IMG/VR virus record: IMGVR_UViG_3300013233_000601
Location: 1 to 38,185 of that record
DNA length: 38,185 nt
Source: a virus
Strand: one strand, 5' to 3'
Each line of letters begins with the position of its first letter. The stretch's first letter is position 1. Shown here in pieces: positions 1,377 through 10,259 of the stretch. The translations under genes were made by a program, and so were the position numbers. The notes beneath the pieces are model-generated. The model did not search any database. It saw only the letters and a list, made by a program, of their open reading frames with translations, and was not told where the DNA came from.

Positions 1377-2315
1377 TTATTTACTCTCTTGGTGTGAGTG
1401 TTCAATCAGCACGGGGTCTCGGGCGGTGCGTTCTTGGCTGCGCTCCAGTAGACCGCGCAACTGTTCGACGGATTTGGTTTGGCGGTCTTGAAATTCGCGG
1501 GTGGTCTCTCGGTCGTCGTCTTCTTTGTCGAGATAGCCTTTGAGCGTGGCGGCTTGCTCTTGGGCTTTGTAGGTCATGTTCATGTCGCCCAAGCTGACTT
1601 GGTTTTTGGCCACCATGTCGGTGATGACTTTGAGCAGAGGGTGGGCTTTGCTGTCCAGCACGGGCTGGTCTACCCCATCACTGTCACGGTACGTTAGGGC
1701 TGTGGGGTTGCCCTCTTTGTCCAGCACCACTTTGGGTTGATGGGTCATAACCCCTTCACCGGCCACGGTCATAAGCATTTGGCTGTAGATCCCCATGAGC
1801 GCGGCCTGATTTTCGGCCATCAAATCGCGCAGGATGGCGGGGTCGTCTTTGTCAAAGGCAAGCTGGAACTTCATGAACAGTTCGGTTTTCTTTAGGCAGG
1901 CGTTGAATTTGGTTTTGCAGATCTGGGTTTTTTCATGCTCACAGGATTGGCACTCGGGGTATTTGCCGACAATCGCTGGGAAGTATTTGGCGACTTTGGC
2001 GTAGAGGCCGTGCTTGAGGGCGTTGAAGCGGGTGATTTTGGCTTCTTCTGGCGTTGGATGACCCACTAAATTTGTGGAGCTGGCGGCTTTGCCCTCTTTT
2101 GTTTTGGGGCCGGTTGCCATTGATCGGGCTTTTAAGCTGCCTTTTTCCCAGTTTGCTTGGGGGATTCGGGTGCCGCACTGCTCGCAGTAGCTCCAATAGT
2201 CGTATGGATGCCATGTTTTTTCTGGCGCTGGCACGGTCTCATCTGGCTCGCCTTTGAATTTGTTTTTGCAGGGAGCGCAGTAGAAGGCGACTTCGGTTAG
2301 GGGCTTGTTATCCAT
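1377..2315 (-). CDS. terS: Putative terminase small subunit
   Basis: 312-residue protein directly upstream of TerL, the usual place for the DNA-recognition subunit of the packaging motor. The N-terminus has zinc-binding pairs (CAPC at residues 14-17 and CEQC at about 44-47), and a second cluster, CQSCEHEKTQIC, lies near 120. Between them is GPKTKEGKAASSTNLVGH followed by NALKHGLYAK, a pattern common in small terminase-like phage proteins. The C-terminal third is charged and probably helical. The ATG overlaps the end of the serine recombinase gene by 8 bases, and the gene ends in TAA immediately before the TerL GTG, so the three genes are probably translationally coupled. The role is inferred mainly from position and the HGL-type motif; it is longer than many TerS proteins. 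Confidence 0.7.
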   Translation of the reverse strand: MDNKPLTEVAFYCAPCKNKFKGEPDETVPAPEKTWHPYDYWSYCEQCGTRIPQANWEKGSLKARSMATGPKTKEGKAASSTNLVGHPTPEEAKITRFNALKHGLYAKVAKYFPAIVGKYPECQSCEHEKTQICKTKFNACLKKTELFMKFQLAFDKDDPAILRDLMAENQAALMGIYSQMLMTVAGEGVMTHQPKVVLDKEGNPTALTYRDSDGVDQPVLDSKAHPLLKVITDMVAKNQVSLGDMNMTYKAQEQAATLKGYLDKEDDDRETTREFQDRQTKSVEQLRGLLERSQERTARDPVLIEHSHQESK

Positions 2316-3915
2316 GCAGGCCGCCGGTTAGGGGGATTGTGAGCGTGGCGGTTCCCAGTAAGCCCCGCTTGGGGAGCCAAACATCTTTACTATGAACCGC
2401 GCCACTTGGCGTGGTGATTAGCTTGCTTTCATCGTATTCAATCACTGCTTCACCCTCTCTTATTTCTATTCCATTGATAAAGCTGGCCAAGAATACTCGT
2501 GCCCGTTTTGGATCTTCACTGTCTGTTATGACGCTGGTCAAAAAACCGCGTATCTGCTGGATTATCTTATCATTTTTCTGAAAAACCGGTTCTTTTTCGC
2601 TGTTTATGGCGCTGATTTGCTGTTCTATTTTGTCTTTTTCTTGGCTGTTGTCTCTGATTCTTTGCATTAGATCTTTGATGTTTGGGGCTTGTTTGCCGAG
2701 GTCTTCTAGAATTTCGTAGATGTTGTTGATCTTGCGTTGCAGTCCGTTCTGTTTGTTGATTAATCGGTTTCGACGAACCATTTGCTCTTTGCTCCAGTCG
2801 TTACAACTGCTTTCAAGCTTGGCGGCGATGCCTTCTAGGGTTTGTTTGGTGATGATGTGGGTGGCGATGTGTTTGGACAGTAGGCGGTCGATGCCTTCGG
2901 CGTTGAGGCGTTTTAGTTTGTGCGTTTTCCTCTGCTTTGCGTCTCGACATACATAGTAGTAGTAGCGTTTGGATCGGCCTTTGGCGGATTCGATGTGCAT
3001 GGGGGCTTGGCATACGCCGCAGGTGAGTAGGCCGGTGAATAAGTGGCGGCTGTGGGGTGATCCGGTGGTGGTGTTGGCTTGGTCTTGGTCGAGGGTTGTC
3101 TGTACGAGTTCCCAGAGTGCTTGGGGGATGGCGGCTACATGGGATTTGACTGTGATCCATTCTTTTTGGGGGCGTTTTATGCCGGTTGCGCCGTCCTTTT
3201 TGTTGAATACGGTGTGGCCGGTTACGGTTTGGTTGCGTAGCAGTTGGCCAACCACTGTTTTGTTCCAGCGTTTGCCTCTGTTGAGTTTGTTTTGTTGGTT
3301 GAGCAGTTGGGTGATGCTGCGTGCGCCGTGGCCGTCTCGCTTGAGTTGGAATATCTCTTTTAGTGTGTCGATTTCGTCGTCGTTGATGATGAGTTTGCGC
3401 CGTCTGGGGTTGTCGTCGGCTTGGGTGACTCTGAATCCGTAGCAGGGTTTGCCGCCGTTCCAGTAGCCTTGCTCGGCGTTCCTGACTAGGCTGCGTTTGG
3501 TGTCGAGTGAGGTTTGGATTGATTTGTATTCGTCCATGACTTCCATGAAGTTGTCTAGCAGTTGGCCTTCGGTGCTGTTTAGGTCAACGCTCATGGATTG
3601 GTAGATGAGTTCGGTGCCGCTGGCTTTGAGCCGCAGCTTGTATTTGATGGCGGTGAGCCTGTTTCTGGCAAACCGGCTGCTGCTCCATGTCAGAAAGTAG
3701 TCTACTTTGTTGTTTTCGCAGTGTTCGACTGCTTGAATTAGTTTTGCGCGGTCTCCTTTCCAGCCAGAGACGGCTCCTTCTACAAATTCCGCCACTACCG
3801 TTGCCCCTAGGGCTTCTGCCTTTTGCCTCCCTCTTTCCAGTTGCGCTGGGATGGATATGTCGTTGTCGTCTTGCTTTTTGTCGCTGACTCGGGCGTGGAT
3901 AATGGCGGTTTTCAT
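2308..3915 (-). CDS. Large serine recombinase (phage integrase type)
   Basis: 535-residue site-specific recombinase that would cut and join att sites through a 5'-phosphoserine intermediate. The resolvase domain (about 2-145) begins with HARVSDKK, where S11 is the expected nucleophile, and contains SSSRFARNR. A recombinase domain (about 160-275) has GYWNGGKPCYGFRV and ITQLLNQQN. A zinc-ribbon region (about 290-345) has CGVC and YYYYVCRDAKQRK; only three cysteines are evident, so the fourth ligand is missing or replaced. A long charged coiled coil follows (about 370-450), as in large serine integrases. It overlaps the small terminase start by 8 bases, an unusual place for an integrase. No directionality factor was recognised. 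Confidence 0.92.
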   Translation of the reverse strand: MKTAIIHARVSDKKQDDNDISIPAQLERGRQKAEALGATVVAEFVEGAVSGWKGDRAKLIQAVEHCENNKVDYFLTWSSSRFARNRLTAIKYKLRLKASGTELIYQSMSVDLNSTEGQLLDNFMEVMDEYKSIQTSLDTKRSLVRNAEQGYWNGGKPCYGFRVTQADDNPRRRKLIINDDEIDTLKEIFQLKRDGHGARSITQLLNQQNKLNRGKRWNKTVVGQLLRNQTVTGHTVFNKKDGATGIKRPQKEWITVKSHVAAIPQALWELVQTTLDQDQANTTTGSPHSRHLFTGLLTCGVCQAPMHIESAKGRSKRYYYYVCRDAKQRKTHKLKRLNAEGIDRLLSKHIATHIITKQTLEGIAAKLESSCNDWSKEQMVRRNRLINKQNGLQRKINNIYEILEDLGKQAPNIKDLMQRIRDNSQEKDKIEQQISAINSEKEPVFQKNDKIIQQIRGFLTSVITDSEDPKRARVFLASFINGIEIREGEAVIEYDESKLITTPSGAVHSKDVWLPKRGLLGTATLTIPLTGGLHG

Positions 3916-3918
3916 GGT

Positions 3919-4044
3919 TTATTCGTTTTCTCGTTTCTTTTTGATGTGGTCGATGATGTAGTAAACCGCTATGGCGATTATCACTGTGCCGCCAATCCCT
4001 ATTACCCAGAAACTAAACCGTATCTGTTCGCTGATGCTCCACAT
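3919..4044 (-). CDS. 41-residue single-pass membrane peptide
   Basis: Short open frame of 41 codons plus TAA that ends 3 bases before the serine recombinase ATG. The product starts MWSISEQIRFSFWV, has one strongly hydrophobic segment at about residues 10-31 (many Ile, Val and Gly), and ends in a basic tail HIKKKRENE, a clear inner-membrane single-span pattern with the basic end cytoplasmic. No family is recognised. Tight spacing to the recombinase suggests cotranscription or translational coupling. No strong Shine-Dalgarno sequence was found (a weak AGGATCACCCC precedes the ATG), so expression is not certain. Confidence 0.5.
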   Translation of the reverse strand: MWSISEQIRFSFWVIGIGGTVIIAIAVYYIIDHIKKKRENE

Positions 4045-4477
4045 GGGGTGATCCTGTTCGTTGTCGTTGGATCGAGCAGTGTATGCAGCGTTTTATGTTG
4101 TGGGTGCGATTTTCCTATTTACTGCGGGGTAGAAAGTTCTATTTGGTGCAGATTATTAAGTACCCACCCCCCCTCCGATGGGTCGGGATCTATCTCTGCC
4201 AAGCCCCCACCCCTGTTGAGCTGACCATTCCGTTGTTGTTACTGCGCTATCTGTTCTGCTGTTGGATTGTAGGTTGTTGATTATTCATGGTCTGCCGTCT
4301 GCCTAACTGCGCTTTATGACATAGGACGCAGTTAGGGTGAATTGAGGGTTAGAGAGTTTGCCCCTTTTTTAATCGTTTTAGCCCTACTCTCAGCAGTGGC
4401 CAGCAACATAGGGGCCATCCCTCAAAGTGGTTAACGCTACATGACTTCTGTCGCAGAGATAGAGCCAAAGAGAAGCA
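4045..4477. other. 433-bp intergenic region between two recombinase genes
   Basis: No convincing gene was found on either strand; the minus-strand frames are 13-25 codons without good ribosome binding sites. It holds one perfect 10-bp inverted repeat (4302-4311 and 4327-4336), a C-rich run at about 4164-4173, and a 6-base inverted repeat GAGAGT/ACTCTC at about 4351-4402 around a T-rich centre. As the only long non-coding stretch between the tyrosine integrase and the serine recombinase, it is the natural place to look for an attachment site and for the promoter of the recombinase-terminase transcript. No consensus promoter was found. Confidence 0.5.
4302..4336. repeat. Perfect 10-bp inverted repeat with 15-bp spacer
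   Basis: The arms are CCTAACTGCG (4302-4311) and CGCAGTTAGG (4327-4336), separated by 15 bases. No T-run follows on either strand, so it does not look like an intrinsic terminator. It could be a recombinase or regulator binding site. The spacer is longer than the 6-8 bp typical of a tyrosine recombinase core, so the att-site reading is only a possibility. Confidence 0.6.
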
Positions 4478-5476
4478 TCATCCCAATTCCCGTACCAATC
4501 CTGATGCAGGTATGGTCATGTTCCGTAGTGGGCTGGCTTTGTTCATCAACGCTCTCTTCTTCTGCATGGCTAAGTGAATATAGACCTTGGCTGTCTCTAA
4601 TGTGGCATGGCCTAACGCATCGGAGATCTGATAGATGTCGGCATCATGCTCAGCCAGTTGAGTACCGAACAGGTGACGGAAGGCGTGAGGGTGGCATTGC
4701 TCCTTGGGCAGACCGGCTTTATGGCCGTGCCGCATGAGGATGTCATTGACCCCTTCCCGACTTAATCGCAGGTTCTCACCACGGCGTTCATGCTCTGGCA
4801 CTTGGTAGTTGCGAGTGGTGATGAACAGGGATCGTTGGCCATTCTTCAGCAGCCGGTCATAGGGTTGCAGTTCGGGGTGGAACAAGTAGGCCTTCAACAT
4901 CAGTCGAGCCTCTGCAACAACGGGAATCAATCGCTCTCGGTTGCCCTTCTCTTTAATGATGACCAACAACTCTTCTTTGCCCTCATCGTTTGACCAGACC
5001 AAATGCTCTTGGTTAAGGCCAACCAGTCCACTGACCCTCATACCGGTACCGATCAGCAGCGACATAATGGCAGCATCCCTCACGCCTAAGAATTTGGACA
5101 GATCCGGCTGTTGCAGCATCTTCTCTGCGGTCTCCATGCTGGCCACCCTTGGCAGTCTTCTCCCTAAGTCGGGATAGTCGAGGTGTTTGGCGGGGTTTTT
5201 TTTCAGATAGCCGACCCGTTCGCACCATGAGAAGAAGCCTCGTATAGCGGCAACATGAACAGCACGGCTACCGGCTCCCAATCCCATCGAGAACAGGACA
5301 GGTCCGGTGAACTCTTCAACCAGTGGTGCCAGGTCCATATCGAATGAGAGGCTGGATCGTTCTTCCAACATATTAAAGAGGCGGGTTACGGATAGGCGGT
5401 ACTTATCGACGGTCTTTGCTGAGCGATTTTTGTTGGTTAGCAGCCACTCACACCACTGATCTATGGTCTCGTACAT
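4478..5476 (-). CDS. Tyrosine recombinase / integrase, full length
   Basis: 332-residue phage/Xer-type recombinase. An N-terminal core-binding (SAM-like) domain covers about 1-100. The catalytic domain carries R147 (GTGMRVSGL), K177 (KEKGNRERLIP), H264 and R267 (HPHAFRH), H290 (LGHATLETA) and nucleophile Y299 (KVYIH), so all six active-site positions are present. The glutamate usual three residues after the first arginine is glycine here. The longer frame begins at 5512, but ATG at 5476 is preferred because AAAGGA lies about 8 bases upstream of it. The upstream region is full of GTTACC/GGTAAC repeats, including a dyad at 5506-5519 close to the start, which suggests regulated expression. Confidence 0.93.
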   Translation of the reverse strand: MYETIDQWCEWLLTNKNRSAKTVDKYRLSVTRLFNMLEERSSLSFDMDLAPLVEEFTGPVLFSMGLGAGSRAVHVAAIRGFFSWCERVGYLKKNPAKHLDYPDLGRRLPRVASMETAEKMLQQPDLSKFLGVRDAAIMSLLIGTGMRVSGLVGLNQEHLVWSNDEGKEELLVIIKEKGNRERLIPVVAEARLMLKAYLFHPELQPYDRLLKNGQRSLFITTRNYQVPEHERRGENLRLSREGVNDILMRHGHKAGLPKEQCHPHAFRHLFGTQLAEHDADIYQISDALGHATLETAKVYIHLAMQKKRALMNKASPLRNMTIPASGLVRELG

Positions 5477-5504
5477 AAAAAATATCCTTTGGGGTCGGGG
5501 ATCG

Positions 5505-5780
5505 GGTAACAATGGTTACAACCCCGTTTCACCACTATTTTACCTTTTATAAACAATAGCTTAGGTGTTACCTCCAAAAGGTAACATAAGGTAACAGGCA
5601 TTCTGAAAGTAAGTGTAAGTGATTGATATAAATAAAGAAATCATGTTACCTAAAAAAGTTACCTATTGAGGTACACGTGTTACCCCTTGTTAACCGTTTT
5701 GTTAACCTTTTGAATGTTGCTTAAAGTGTTGATAAATATATAGTTTATGTACTTATTAAGTAATTGTAACCAATGTTACC
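5505..5780. repeat. GTTACC/GGTAAC repeat array, candidate origin or operator cluster
   Basis: The non-coding region 5477-5928 (452 bp, strongly AT-rich) contains exact GGTAAC or GTTACC hexamers at 5505-5510, 5567-5572, 5580-5585, 5590-5595, 5645-5650, 5658-5663, 5679-5684 and 5775-5780, plus related GTTAACC at 5689-5695 and 5701-5707. Two occurrences form the same dyad GTAAC-N4-GTTAC (5506-5519 and 5766-5779), and one forms GTTACCTCCAAAAGGTAAC (5567-5585). The array lies downstream of the helicase-primase and upstream of the integrase. Iterons of a replication origin and operators of a dimeric regulator are the two plausible readings. Confidence 0.75.
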
Positions 5781-5874
5781 CTATCCCCTTTCCTTGAAAG
5801 TTTTTTTTACCTAAAAGCATAGAGATAACATTAACTAACCCACATATCCCCATGTATTAATTACTAATATGCAC

Positions 5875-5901
5875 AAAAAAGCCCGATAATCAGTCGGGCT
5901 T
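5875..5901 (-). terminator. Intrinsic terminator of the replication operon
   Basis: On the minus strand the stem AAGCCCGA/TCGGGCTT (5894-5901 with 5879-5886) has a 7-base loop and is followed by a T-run (A-run 5875-5880 on plus). It lies 28 bases after the stop of the helicase-primase gene, exactly where a terminator for this leftward operon is expected, and it separates that operon from the repeat array and integrase. Confidence 0.88.
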
Positions 5902-5928
5902 GTCTTCATTGTTACGCTCAATCAAGGT

Positions 5929-8595
5929 CTATCTGACTTTAAACCTCCAGCACTTTAGGGTTCTATCAAAGACGTTTGATCTGACCGCGCAAAATTGATC
6001 AAATCGGCGTGTTTTGGAGCCTGCCAAATACTGTCTCAAAACCTTGTTGGGTTCGATTTCGAGTCTCAACTCATCACAGACTTGCCTGAAGTGGTTCAGA
6101 TTGATGGCGATGTAATCGGGATCTTTGCTGTGATTCAATCTGGGTTTGGGTGCTGTCAGGGTTGGCATGTTGGGGTCTCGGAATCCTTCGATGTAGTCGT
6201 AGGTCTCCCAGAATGCCGCCACCACGGGATGATCGTCGTTGGTCGCTTGTTGACGCTCTCTGGCCATGTCCGCGATCAAGAGGGATGTTTCATCAATTAA
6301 CGTGTCTGAGAGATTGAATATGGGCTGCATCGCCTTGAGCATGGCGATCAACTGAGCATGGCACTTGGCAATACGAAAGGTTTTAATCGCAGGGTCATCT
6401 ATTAAAATCTTTTCTATTTTTGGAAAAATCTCAGCGAACTGTTTGAGTATCTGCTTTTCTTTTTTCACCACCTCCACCAAAAACCCACTCAACTCATCCA
6501 CTGGCCAAATCGCCAACCGATCAGCAGCCTGCTTACTCTGCTCATTATGCCCCTCTCTGGAAAAGTGAAGGTGGCAAATACGGGTCAAGATCGCTTCACT
6601 GGCTTCTACAGTCCTGTTTTGAGCAATCACCAACGCCCCTTTGAACGGTGGCTCAATGGTGGCGTTGGTGTTGTCTTTCACGCCCTTTGATCGAGTTGCC
6701 CGACCGTTATAAGCCGGTTTCAACTCTTCCCAATCAAACTTTTTCGTATGCGGTCCAGATTCATCACGATCACCCTCAATCAAGACAATCGGCATATTGG
6801 ATACCTGAGCCATGTTTCGCGCTCGCCCCGGGCCAGTGGTCTTACCCGGATCAAAGCCCTCGTAATCTTCCCGCCCAAAGAGCTTCCATAAAAACTCAAT
6901 CAAAGTGGTTTTACCGGACCCCGCATCCCCGACGATCTCCAAAAAGGGGAACGACTTTTGGCTTTTACGCAGCTGCTCTGCAAACAGTGACGAAAACCAA
7001 TAGGTCAGGCTAACAATGCCTTTTTGACCGTAAGCGGCGATGATGTCGTCGATCCATGCGGTACTCTTTAGCTTGTCTTCCAGTTGCAGGTGAACCGACC
7101 CCAGATTGGATTTGATGCTGTTTTCACCGACATCAAAAAAATCATCTTTATTCAGGTTGTAAACAATCCCGTCTTTGATGGCTTTGTTGTCGTAGACGTA
7201 AATGCCGCTCTCTTTGTCGTAGCCAAGAAAATCAATCATGTTGACAACTTTGGTCTTATTTCGGTACCAGTCCTTCACCATGTAATCCAGATCGGAACTC
7301 TTGCCGGTGAACAGCGCACCAGGCGCGGTGCTCATCACCTTACCCTTGAATTCACCTGCCGAGCTGAGTGCTTTACCAGAGAGTGCGACATTGCAATCAT
7401 GCGAGCCACTGCCAAAGCGAATACGGAAGTAATACTGCCCCTCATCAATATGGGGGTTTCTTTGGTAATAGAGGAAGCTGGGAACGCAATTGGCGATCTC
7501 TTTTATCTCACCAGCACTCTCCATCGCCATCTCGCCATAATCCTTTTCCAGCTCCTCACGGGTGCCTTCTTTGTCGTCCTTTTCCACTCCCAGCTCTTTA
7601 TCATATTTCTCTTTATCAAACTTAAAACGGTAGAGCTTATTTTTGAATTCGGTAATGAGGAAGCTTTGTTGAGTGCGTTTGTAGATCAAATTGCACTTCT
7701 TGCGCGCACTGGGTGCAATCAACAGACTGCCTTCATAAAGCGCGTCTTTAAAGAACCATTTGCCCTCCATTAACCCCTTCTGATAAGCGTCGTTCCAATC
7801 CAGACCCTCTTTCGGAACCAAGGCCGCGTTGACCGCCTCTTTTTCATCGCGCAACCGCTTGACCATCTTATGAGTGGCGTCTTTACCGGCTTTGTTGTTG
7901 TCCAGCGCAACCACCCAAGTGATGCCTTGGTGCAAATACGGTTTGAGGGCATTTTCGGGGTAGTTCATGCAGGTCATCAGACTGACCGCTTTTTTACCGG
8001 CATACATCAACGCCAGAGCATCAAAGATCCCTTCAACCAACCAAATCTCATCACCCAAGTTGATCTCCATTTTGGGCGGTGACCACCAATCGCCTTTGTA
8101 AAAACTGCCGTCGGCTTTACGTTGGCCACCGAAGTGGGCTTTGCGGCCAATGGCCTCGGCGTTTTCGACAAACCGCTCCCAATAGCGTGTTTTACCGTTA
8201 TCCAGATAAAAGCGGACGGTAGGTGATCCGGCTTGCTTCTTGGGATCATAAAACGAGGCTTGTTGGTACCAGCCTTTGATTGCTTGGGTATCAAATCCCC
8301 GCTGCAACTGAAGATAAGCGTCGGCGGTTAGGTTGGGGTTTTCAGGTGTGGGTGGGTATTTTTTGGACAGATCGGCGAACAGGTCAGGAAACAGATCCCG
8401 CACGGTGCTGTCCCAACCGCACTTGTTAAGACGGCCACAACGAATGAATTTGGTTTTTTCAGCGCTGGCAAACAACTCTTTTTTGTGGCACTCAGGGCAC
8501 TTACCTTTTTGCAAATACGCGCCTTTTTGCACAAAACCAAATTCATCAATCAAGGCTTGTTTGGCTTGTTGGTTGATCAGATCCCAATCAATCAT
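5929..8595 (-). CDS. Zinc-finger/TOPRIM/helicase replication protein (primase-helicase)
   Basis: 888-residue protein combining primase and helicase parts. The N-terminal zinc motif has Cys33, Cys36, Cys53 and Cys59 (CPEC... CGRLNKC). The TOPRIM domain shows the conserved Glu in IWLVEGIFDA (E188) and the Asp in VVALDNNKAG (D231). The C-terminal P-loop ATPase has Walker A GDAGSGKT at 556-563 and a Walker B-like PIVLIEGDRDE near 605. It would lay primers and unwind the phage DNA. The frame is open to 8628, but ATG at 8595 forms an ATGA overlap with the preceding gene, the usual coupling in this genome. It is the only candidate replication initiator or helicase here, and SSB is encoded far away at about 30.4 kb. 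Confidence 0.9.
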   Translation of the reverse strand: MIDWDLINQQAKQALIDEFGFVQKGAYLQKGKCPECHKKELFASAEKTKFIRCGRLNKCGWDSTVRDLFPDLFADLSKKYPPTPENPNLTADAYLQLQRGFDTQAIKGWYQQASFYDPKKQAGSPTVRFYLDNGKTRYWERFVENAEAIGRKAHFGGQRKADGSFYKGDWWSPPKMEINLGDEIWLVEGIFDALALMYAGKKAVSLMTCMNYPENALKPYLHQGITWVVALDNNKAGKDATHKMVKRLRDEKEAVNAALVPKEGLDWNDAYQKGLMEGKWFFKDALYEGSLLIAPSARKKCNLIYKRTQQSFLITEFKNKLYRFKFDKEKYDKELGVEKDDKEGTREELEKDYGEMAMESAGEIKEIANCVPSFLYYQRNPHIDEGQYYFRIRFGSGSHDCNVALSGKALSSAGEFKGKVMSTAPGALFTGKSSDLDYMVKDWYRNKTKVVNMIDFLGYDKESGIYVYDNKAIKDGIVYNLNKDDFFDVGENSIKSNLGSVHLQLEDKLKSTAWIDDIIAAYGQKGIVSLTYWFSSLFAEQLRKSQKSFPFLEIVGDAGSGKTTLIEFLWKLFGREDYEGFDPGKTTGPGRARNMAQVSNMPIVLIEGDRDESGPHTKKFDWEELKPAYNGRATRSKGVKDNTNATIEPPFKGALVIAQNRTVEASEAILTRICHLHFSREGHNEQSKQAADRLAIWPVDELSGFLVEVVKKEKQILKQFAEIFPKIEKILIDDPAIKTFRIAKCHAQLIAMLKAMQPIFNLSDTLIDETSLLIADMARERQQATNDDHPVVAAFWETYDYIEGFRDPNMPTLTAPKPRLNHSKDPDYIAINLNHFRQVCDELRLEIEPNKVLRQYLAGSKTRRFDQFCAVRSNVFDRTLKCWRFKVR

Positions 8596-8861
8596 TTCGC
8601 CATCCCCGCTTGGTAGTACTCGCGGCACTCTTGCTCTTCCAAAACCAATTCAGCGCCGAAGGTTTTTCGTAATTCACTCATGTTGTCATCGCGTAATAGG
8701 TCAACTAATTCGGGGTTGGTCTTCTTCATTCCAGCAAAAATGATCTGTTTTTTCTGCTTTGAAAGTCGGCGTGTGTTAATCCATTTTTTTGACGCTTTCG
8801 GGGCGCGAAAAACAACAACACAGCTCTGACCGGCTGGATAAATATTATTTAAAGGGTACAT
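8592..8861 (-). CDS. Uncharacterised 89-residue protein, first gene of the replication unit
   Basis: No family recognised. The start is ATG at 8861, because GGAG lies 6-9 bases upstream; the longer frame to 8897 begins with TTG inside a terminator hairpin. The N-terminal half (MYPLNNIYPAG, then VVVFRAPKASKKW) looks like a compact beta-rich segment. The C-terminal half is charged and helical and ends EQECREYYQAGMAK. It overlaps the helicase-primase by 4 bases (ATGA), so the two are surely cotranslated. A replication accessory role is inferred from this coupling only. Confidence 0.75.
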   Translation of the reverse strand: MYPLNNIYPAGQSCVVVFRAPKASKKWINTRRLSKQKKQIIFAGMKKTNPELVDLLRDDNMSELRKTFGAELVLEEQECREYYQAGMAK

Positions 8862-8877
8862 GACGTTCTCCAGGGCT

Positions 8878-8915
8878 AAAAAAAGCGCCTCTGCCAAAAT
8901 GACAGAGAGCGCGCT
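8878..8915 (-). terminator. Terminator-like hairpin in the leader of the replication unit
   Basis: On the minus strand AGCGC (8911-8915) pairs with GCGCT (8884-8888), an inner CTCTG/CAGAG (8903-8907 with 8889-8893) extends the stem with a 3-base bulge, and a seven-base T-run follows. The hairpin ends only about 17 bases before the ATG at 8861, leaving just the ribosome binding site in between. Transcripts of the replication genes must either pass through it or start inside it, so it may be an attenuator or the target of antitermination. Confidence 0.8.
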
Positions 8916-9004
8916 GTTGGATTTATGGAACAGAGTCCTGAGTCAGGGAGTACTGAATATCTGTTCTGGGTTTAAGCCAACTGATTGATCAAACAATCCC
9001 CATT

Positions 9005-9049
9005 TCAGGCTTATGAGTGAATGGCGTCACTGAGCAATTAGGAGCCTGA
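9005..9049. other. Non-coding stretch with an interrupted stem-loop
   Basis: The region 8916-9076 has no gene. TCAGGCT (9005-9011) is complementary to AGCCTGA (9043-9049), and an inner AGTGA/TCACT pair (9016-9020 and 9027-9031) closes a 6-base loop, with an asymmetric internal loop between the two stems. No T-run follows, so it is not a standard terminator. A TTGATCAA palindrome lies near 8976-8983. Function unknown; a structured leader RNA or protein binding site is possible. Confidence 0.35.
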
Positions 9050-9076
9050 ATGCCTCCGCTCTTTTGAGGTAAAACG

Positions 9077-9361
9077 TCAATCGGTATCGGCGGCCTCTCC
9101 GGCCAACGCGGCATAAGCAGCCCCGTCGATGTAATCATCTGGCTGATGGCCTCCTTGGCAAGATCGGCTGATCTTCAACAGCTCCATAAATTGCCAGCCA
9201 TCCACCTCAGATAAGGTGGTGCCTTTAAGGGCATTAAAGGCTTTTACCGTTGCGGCCATCGAGCGCTCACCCTCTTCGCTGTCACGCTGTTTGCCACGCT
9301 CTTTGAGCAGGTTTGAAGCGGTGTCGAGGATGATTGAGGCCTTTGTTTTGTCGGTTGTCAT
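9077..9361 (-). CDS. DUF6378-like phage protein
   Basis: 94 residues. The C-terminal half has ELLKISRSCQGGHQPDDYIDGAAYAALAGE, matching the pattern of the DUF6378 family found in many tailed phages (a D-Y-x-D-x-A-A-Y-x-x-L sequence). The N-terminus (SIILDTASNLLKERG) is also typical. Molecular function is not established. AAGGAA 8-13 bases before the ATG supports this start, and the gene sits 11 bases after the preceding stop in the early operon. Confidence 0.8.
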   Translation of the reverse strand: MTTDKTKASIILDTASNLLKERGKQRDSEEGERSMAATVKAFNALKGTTLSEVDGWQFMELLKISRSCQGGHQPDDYIDGAAYAALAGEAADTD

Positions 9362-9372
9362 GTTGGTGTTCC

Positions 9373-9657
9373 TTAAAACGTAAATTCAGGTTGAGAATTG
9401 CCAAAGAACGATTGGCATTTCAGCTTGGCCATTTCTTTTGAGCAGCGGGATATGCCTTTGGACATTGCGTACCGCTTCTCTTTCAAAATATCCAAATGGT
9501 TTGCCATCATGACCGCTTCGCTTTTTTCCAACCCCTGCGAGCGGATCAATAACTGCTGAAGTTCTCGGTGTTTTTCCAACATCATATTGAGTGCTTTCAA
9601 AGCTTGCCGATAATCGGCCTTTTTCACCATTAAAGAGAGGTATTCATCATTGTTCAT
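9373..9657 (-). CDS. Small helical protein of unknown function
   Basis: 94 residues, no recognised family. The sequence is almost all helix-forming (KADYRQALKALNMMLEKHRELQQLLIR), suggesting a coiled coil or helical hairpin, with two cysteines near the C-terminus. ATG at 9657 overlaps the stop of the small tyrosine recombinase gene by 4 bases (ATGA), so it is translated from the same message. It might work with that recombinase, but this rests on coupling alone. Confidence 0.7.
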   Translation of the reverse strand: MNNDEYLSLMVKKADYRQALKALNMMLEKHRELQQLLIRSQGLEKSEAVMMANHLDILKEKRYAMSKGISRCSKEMAKLKCQSFFGNSQPEFTF

Positions 9658-10259
9658 CGGGCTGCCCTCGCAAGATCAAGTTGCATCTGTTCTTTATCAG
9701 GTTTGGCGTAAATCGCCGTGGTTTTGATGCTGGAGTGACCCAAAGCGCGTTGGGCAACCAACAGTGGTTCTTTGTGTGTTGAGGTTTCCACCACTCGTTT
9801 GGCTAAGGTGTGGCGGAAGGTGTGGGGGGATACATCGCTGCTGATACCGGCTCTTTTCGCCCAGCGTTTCATCAGGCTTTGATACGAACGCACGCTTAAC
9901 CCTTGGCGCTTTTTGCTCATGACCAACGGCTCATCCAGATCGTTCACATAACCTTGGCGACGGCGCAGCAGGATGAGGTTTTCGATGGCTTGGCGGGCGG
10001 GCTTGGTAAGGAAGATGCTGTGGGCTTTTTTGCGTTTATTGGTGATGGCACGGATCACGAGGTGATCGGTTAGCAGGGCGCTCTGTGCGTCGCCGACGGT
10101 GAGTTTGCTCATGGGTGTGACGCGGATGCCGGTTTGACGCATCAGCACCATCCAGTTGATGTCACGTTCTGCCATTGGGGATGAATCTTGGCGGACGGTT
10201 TTGAAGAGTTGTTTCTCTTCGGCGCGGGTTAAGTAGCGATCAAATACAGGGTTTGTCAT
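9654..10259 (-). CDS. Short tyrosine recombinase (catalytic domain only)
   Basis: 201 residues, about the size of FimB/FimE-type recombinases, with no N-terminal core-binding domain. Active-site residues are R46 (QTGIRVTPM), Lys in TNKRKKAH (75-78), H146 and R149 (SPHTFRH), H175 (LGHSSIKTT) and Y184 (AIYAKP). The usual Glu after the first arginine is replaced by a PM pair. The frame extends to 10325, but ATG at 10259 has AGGAGA six bases upstream. It lies inside the early operon together with replication genes, so DNA inversion, dimer resolution or help in integration or excision are possible roles. It is the second tyrosine recombinase of this genome. Confidence 0.88.
   Translation of the reverse strand: MTNPVFDRYLTRAEEKQLFKTVRQDSSPMAERDINWMVLMRQTGIRVTPMSKLTVGDAQSALLTDHLVIRAITNKRKKAHSIFLTKPARQAIENLILLRRRQGYVNDLDEPLVMSKKRQGLSVRSYQSLMKRWAKRAGISSDVSPHTFRHTLAKRVVETSTHKEPLLVAQRALGHSSIKTTAIYAKPDKEQMQLDLARAAR

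Follow-up and report, generated by a model that had tools for sequence, protein, structure and literature searches.

The virus record IMGVR_UViG_3300013233_000601 of IMG/VR, analysed here over its whole 38,185 nucleotides (hereafter the window), carries three genes for site-specific recombinases: a large serine recombinase (LSR), a Xer-like tyrosine recombinase, and a short tyrosine recombinase that consists of the catalytic domain only. On balance, we think it probable that the three have separate jobs. The LSR would integrate the phage at a tRNA gene through an attP site that lies inside its own coding sequence, the Xer-like enzyme would resolve multimers at a dif-like site, and the short enzyme, more tentatively, may help process the replicating DNA. 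Both ends of the window carry the same 239 bp, a perfect terminal repeat; counted once, this leaves a circular unit of 37,946 bp. Almost all of its genes lie on the minus strand, where they follow the order short enzyme, small genes, primase, probable origin, Xer-like enzyme, LSR, probable small terminase, large terminase, portal and late genes. A preliminary description of this DNA had reported that all three recombinases keep their catalytic residues, and this was confirmed by the open reading frame (ORF) calls (2308-3915, 4478-5476 and 9654-10259, all where it had placed them and all on the minus strand), by the Pfam domains and by residue alignments with relatives. The features on which the argument depends are as follows.

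2308..3915, minus strand: LSR, 535 aa, predicted phage integrase (Pfam domains; in prophages, homologues lie at one end, the 3' end of the gene marking the junction with host DNA)
2350..2398, minus strand: predicted LSR attP, the 49-bp dyad GGTTCATAGTAAAGATGTTTGGCTCCCCAAGCGGGGCTTACTGGGAACC, inside the 3' coding end of the LSR gene (dyad shared with nearly all free relatives examined)
2371..2379, minus strand: predicted core of the crossover, TGGCTCCCC, reverse complement of a tRNA-Asn 3' end and coding for W-L-P in the LSR (core matches the attL and attR of tRNA-Asn prophages)
4305..4333, minus strand: single-copy dif-like site AACTGCGTCCT-ATGTCAT-AAAGCGCAGTT, 3' of the Xer-like gene (matrix score; conserved in relatives)
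4478..5476, minus strand: Xer-like tyrosine recombinase, 332 aa, family core gene, probable multimer resolvase (Pfam, conservation, nearest solved relative XerD)
5477..5928, no strand assigned: region rich in A+T (34% GC) that holds GGTAACA 7-8 times, both orientations counted; probable iteron-type origin (repeat search; relatives have different motifs at the same place)
9654..10259, minus strand: short tyrosine recombinase, 201 aa, catalytic domain only, family core gene (Pfam, conservation, AlphaFold)

The LSR integrates relatives of the phage at tRNA genes

The LSR has the Resolvase (PF00239, 2e-21), Recombinase (PF07508, 1e-17) and Zn_ribbon_recom (PF13408, 7e-12) domains, and its catalytic serine motif R9-V10-S11 showed no variation in 8 relatives. 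Relatives were gathered by alignment of the portal protein (A4), to avoid choosing them by their recombinases, which yielded 34 bacterial loci and 80 viral contigs. The family so defined, by a gene unrelated to the recombinases, consists of proteobacterial temperate phages. In ten of its prophages one prophage end coincides with the 3' end of the LSR gene, and the opposite end is the terminase side. That 3' end overlaps, in antisense, a called host tRNA gene in nine of the ten (tRNA-Asn in six, and tRNA-Leu, tRNA-Arg and tRNA-His in one each); the tenth has a tRNA-Asn-like core at which no tRNA was called. Identical cores of 19, 14, 11, 16 and 21 bp were present at both ends of five prophages, each containing TGGCTCCCC. 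For a single lysogen, a Pseudogulbenkiania strain (G019), the empty site was also found: the query made by joining its flanks is contiguous in the relative G033, which it matches across the junction at 93% over 150 bp; in a second relative (G034) the flanks are 1.2 kb apart, compared with ~44 kb in the lysogen.

In these relatives the LSR is the integrase, and by homology it is the predicted integrase of the phage in the window, which supports the earlier statement that one enzyme is enough for integration. Insertion would be at the 3' end of a tRNA gene of the host, which for the window is predicted to be tRNA-Asn, and integration would separate the replication and recombination genes from the late genes, with which they are contiguous in the circular phage.

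The predicted attP site lies within the integrase gene

The attachment core falls inside the LSR coding sequence, at the codons of a conserved W-L-P. In free phages this core is the centre of a 49-bp dyad, GGTTCATAGTA...TGGCTCCCC...TACTGCGAACC, found at the LSR 3' end of nearly every free relative examined; the window copy occupies 2350-2398, where we place the predicted attP. The preliminary description had pointed to 4045-4477 for the junction sites, which was not borne out, and we rejected attP in the gap between the Xer-like and LSR genes because the junctions fall within the LSR gene. The arms of the dyad covary between GGTTCGCAG/CTGCGAACC and GGTTCCCAG/CTGGGAACC, with 85.7% of arm positions paired, compared with 15-41% when the arms were slid. 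Because the arms covary and pair there, the LSR protein motif V-H-S...W-L-P...L-L-R-T is largely a DNA site. Two further observations support this: in G+C-rich relatives the rest of the LSR gene seldom uses GTT and CGA/GGA, which are the codons of the arms, and the relative L126 (~3530) retains the dyad in another reading frame, with the tRNA core inverted. The inverted core of L126 should flip the orientation of integration.

The LSR gene occurs in both orientations relative to the terminase, with attP apparently at its 3' end in each. It is inverted in L034 (5559-7208), L075 (3925-5694), L051 (5367-6914), L069, L115 and L030, as if LSR and attP together formed a mobile cassette.

Since attP lies inside the gene, the LSR of a prophage ends in antisense-tRNA codons, as in one example whose tail reads WLPEQGSNLRPAD up to the stop. 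Integration would swap the last ~20 residues of the LSR for a tail read antisense through the tRNA gene. The prophage ORFs retain all domains (catalytic, recombinase and zinc); only the tail is changed, and the gene is not split into non-functional fragments. Free-phage LSR tails end in Ala in 17 of 19 relatives and in Ala-Ala in 11 of them, and that of the window ends in Gly. It is conceivable, although we hold it only tentatively, that integration acts as a switch on the integrase, the tail made from the circular phage (Ala or Ala-Ala, resembling ssrA-type degradation tags) being exchanged for a host antisense-tRNA tail that might alter stability or directionality. If so, the tail switch would be a serine-recombinase counterpart of the archaeal suicidal integrases, in phages with their own Xer/dif-like system. 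An integrase whose C-terminus is rewritten by integration offers a natural test of how the integration state might govern activity or direction. An exact-phrase search of open-access text found no description of attP within a serine integrase gene.

An exchangeable integrase and two tyrosine enzymes kept as core genes

Among 50,697 phage records, the best match of each of the three enzymes was the same phage, Microcystis phage vB_MaeS-yong1 (identity of 50% for the LSR, 37% for the Xer-like enzyme and 39% for the short enzyme). As all three best matches are one phage and the set recurs in further contigs, the trio is more than a chance collection. All five records with a short-enzyme relative of at least ~40% identity (vB_MaeS-yong1, G001, G002, G004 and G005) have a Xer-like enzyme directly before an LSR; two weaker matches (27%) and one 13-kb fragment have no LSR. 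The replication protein of vB_MaeS-yong1 is of another type than that of the window. Scanning the viral contigs with the single LSR or Xer-like sequence returned no relative, and alignment- and portal-based scans were needed.

Strong family matches in 25 prophage-carrying genomes numbered 24 for the Xer-like enzyme (absent from G016), 24 for the short enzyme (absent from G031) and 16 for the LSR, counts in which many genomes are metagenome-assembled, binning errors are possible and the match is not always on the contig of the portal. The integrase can be exchanged between members of the family; its core genes include those for the Xer-like and the short enzyme. The preliminary description had proposed that related phages lacking two of the three enzymes with no change in lifestyle would speak against it. 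The LSR is indeed missing from 9 of the 25 prophages, with another integrase in its place in all five examined, but the two tyrosine enzymes are almost never lost. Another case of integrase exchange is that of the LSR-less relatives L098 and L109, which have a large serine recombinase of a different kind (398-2032 and 3358-4959, respectively) upstream of the Xer-like gene.

Some of these records are of interest in other respects. L004 (MT855965.1) is recorded as a Microcystis phage, yet the family prophages found here were all in Proteobacteria, and its stated host may deserve checking. Bacterially binned contigs of G013 (L034, L160 and L161) and G018 (L040, L158 and L159) have a circularly permuted gene order, unsplit at the LSR site, which suggests that they are unintegrated phage DNA.

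The Xer-like enzyme is not the integrase

The product of 4478-5476 has the Phage_integrase (2e-26) and SAM_1 domains, and R147, K177, H264, R267, H290 and Y299 were unchanged in 9 relatives. It matches the XerC, XerD and PRK00283 models over their full length at 164-174 bits, under the curated cut-offs of 279-335, and for that reason we call it Xer-like rather than an orthologue; its nearest solved relative is XerD, and it shows 30-32% identity to proteobacterial XerD.

The preliminary description had labelled this enzyme a full tyrosine integrase and had suggested that the phage might choose between two attachment sites. Such a second integrase could be imagined, since the enzyme is a tyrosine recombinase adjoining the attP region and lies at the prophage end near a tRNA gene in some LSR-less prophages, which had led us to consider it as the integrase of the latter. 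We dropped this idea because the other ends carry separate integrases: all five LSR-less prophages examined, out of nine, have their own tyrosine integrase beside the att site at the opposite end, across from the Xer-like gene. The Xer-like gene is, moreover, contiguous with the terminase in both LSR-bearing and LSR-less phages, and at 13 LSR-bearing loci the 700 bp upstream of it contained no tRNA T-loop motif (some of which are the same phage, and with one match that falls inside a gene). Every LSR-bearing integrated prophage examined uses the LSR site, and in none was a second site seen in use. The 332-aa enzyme is not the integrase; the earlier label does not hold, the choice of two sites is unsupported, and a second integrase is very improbable. 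Two viral contigs have a different LSR at the position of the separate integrase. When the LSR-less prophages L048 and L053 were searched for exact repeats, no core was found to be common to their two ends; L048 has a tRNA-Ser-like sequence at both ends.

A dif-like site follows the Xer-like gene

Between the Xer-like gene and the next module lies a 29-bp element with an 11-7-11 layout and the consensus AACTGCGCNTT-ATGACAA-AAAGCGCAGTT, which lies 118-240 bp past the Xer-like stop codon in most members. With a leave-one-out matrix, the window copy scored 35.8 bits, compared with 10.0 for the next best site in the window and a maximum of 7.1 in shuffled sequence. Nine further loci have one clear copy each, except L075, in which the spacer is one base longer. 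In held-out ends of LSR-bearing prophages, one clear copy was found in 8 of 11, 155-442 bp past the Xer-like gene. The site is thus single-copy and linked to the Xer-like gene, and its presence both with and without the LSR indicates that it belongs to that gene.

In most members, the primase and the Xer-like gene are separated by sequence that is A+T-rich or repeat-rich and in which a short motif forms an array. The motif differs from phage to phage and occurs in both orientations: GGTAACA in the window, GTCCCACAT in G001, GGTGCAAG in L076 and AACCCGCGCA in L094, L098, L109 and L119. These arrays are probably fast-evolving iteron origins. We also considered the GGTAACA array as the arm region of attP, and rejected this as the best reading because relatives have different arrays at the same place, which is more iteron-like.

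The layout of the site, like that of single-recombinase systems, and the probable iteron origin nearby make multimer resolution of a replicating circle the best reading. The Xer-like enzyme would act on 4305-4333, near its gene and the probable origin, reducing circular replicating multimers to monomers; the site itself is observed, and this use of it is probable. Just after the site, many relatives have a conserved gene of ~140-205 aa with no Pfam match (L029 6769-7386, L045 6463-7002, L034 5087-5587 and L004 25929-26468), with recurrent half-site-like sequences close to its start; no such gene was found at this place in the window.

The short enzyme is an active-looking Xer catalytic domain

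The short enzyme matches Phage_integrase (7e-25) over the catalytic part only. R46, K75, H146, R149 and Y184 do not vary, and one relative has Gln in place of the second His (175). Its AlphaFold model has a complete catalytic fold (pLDDT 88.8) closest to XerA, so that, as modelled, it is an active-looking Xer catalytic domain. In the window, as in the relatives examined, the gene lies ahead of the replication genes, and its near-universal presence indicates that it matters to the phage. Expressed ahead of the replication genes, the enzyme would most likely help process replicating phage DNA, a role that we put forward weakly. It was to this enzyme that dimer resolution had been assigned earlier. 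The function itself probably does exist within the trio, but it fits the 332-aa enzyme better, whose gene is next to the single dif-like site; a dyad search of the flanks of the short gene (flanks only) in 24 relatives found nothing conserved.

Alternative explanations

Several observations weigh against the division of labour proposed above. No prophage of the phage in the window was found, so its host and attB are predictions. Three of the 11 test prophages have no recognisable dif-like site, and the prophage in G031 has the Xer-like enzyme but neither the short enzyme nor the site. The arms of the site covary, but the training sites had been picked partly by symmetry and by eye. The predicted site could instead be the operator of a regulator, or a terminator. 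Dyad symmetry is equally typical of operators, and in some relatives inspection by eye picks out extra half-site-like sequences where the next conserved gene begins. This we regard as rather unlikely, as there is exactly one such site per genome, with an 11-7-11 layout, a partly conserved asymmetric centre and, in the window, no T-run, at a constant place 3' of the recombinase gene whatever follows.

The Xer-like and short enzymes might also work on the dif-like site as a XerC/XerD-type pair. Each is present in 24 of the 25 genomes, and the right inner arm of the site is more conserved than the left, as two different half-sites would predict. However, the arms share nearly the same 8-bp motif, fitting one enzyme, the short enzyme lacks an N-terminal DNA-binding domain, and the distances of the two enzymes are weakly correlated (r = 0.30), which gives no sign of a pair; this makes a pair unlikely. 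That the short enzyme is a Fim-type DNA invertase for a phase-variable phage segment seems quite improbable. Its size is similar (201 aa), its modelled catalytic fold is complete, and it has weak matches to tyrosine invertase models (32-33 bits for the Fim models) and to plasmid invertases (30% identity), but XerC scores far higher (91 bits), and a dyad search confined to the flanks of its gene in 24 relatives found none conserved. Separate roles, with the Xer-like enzyme alone at the dif-like site, remain our preferred reading.

Comparison with known systems

The LSR resembles phage serine integrases of the phiC31, Bxb1 and TP901-1 type in its domains, in an attP that is a ~50-bp dyad with a short core, and in integration at a short shared core. 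It differs from them in that attP lies inside its own coding sequence and in that it targets tRNA genes at their 3' end, as described for the tyrosine integrases of mycobacteriophages (PMC9262239). Archaeal suicidal (SSV-type) integrases likewise have the recombination site inside the integrase gene, which integration alters, and, according to a review, self-disrupting recombinases are confined to archaea (PMC8371274). Those are tyrosine enzymes split in two, whereas the LSR is a serine enzyme that exchanges its tail and retains its domains; the LSR family is a milder, bacterial, serine-type case of a self-altering integrase. In mycobacteriophage BPs, attP lies in the repressor gene (PMC9262239), and its integration-dependent immunity shares with the LSR an attP in a coding gene, a tRNA target and a changed protein C-terminus (PMC9262239). 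There the repressor is truncated by a tyrosine integrase (PMC9262239), and here the integrase changes its own tail. The Ala and Ala-Ala tails of free-phage LSRs invite comparison with the ssrA-like tags of the BPs system, a possible likeness that the Gly-ended window tail does not share.

As in XerS/difSL and XerH/difH (PMC5357621, PMC2731167), one Xer-like enzyme goes with one dif-like site beside its gene; unlike those systems, this one is encoded by temperate phages, and its 29-bp site has different arms. Cre/loxP of P1 (PMC2409434) is a phage tyrosine recombinase system that holds circular phage DNA monomeric, as proposed here for the Xer-like enzyme, but P1 is a plasmid prophage, whereas the prophages of this family integrate, so resolution would serve the replicating form. 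An exchangeable integration function joined to two family core enzymes explains why one small phage has three recombinases. It also defines two sites, a 49-bp attP that lies in the gene of a serine integrase and is directed at tRNA genes, and a dif-like site of 29 bp carried by the phage, and the many related integrases identified with matched attP and tRNA attB may interest genome engineers.

Neighbouring genes

Two further genes to which the gene order above refers are as follows.

1377..2315, minus strand: conserved gene upstream of the terminase, probable small terminase, whose start overlaps the LSR stop (no Pfam match)
5929..8628, minus strand: primase/helicase-type replication protein (phrog_1139, 3.8e-279)

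The primase is of the phrog_1139 type, with relatives in P2-like phages, and is unlike the primase of the trio-bearing relatives, indicating that the replication gene has been swapped and the recombinases retained. In the same operon as the short recombinase, 9077-9361 encodes a DUF6378 protein whose PHROG family is labelled phosphofructokinase.

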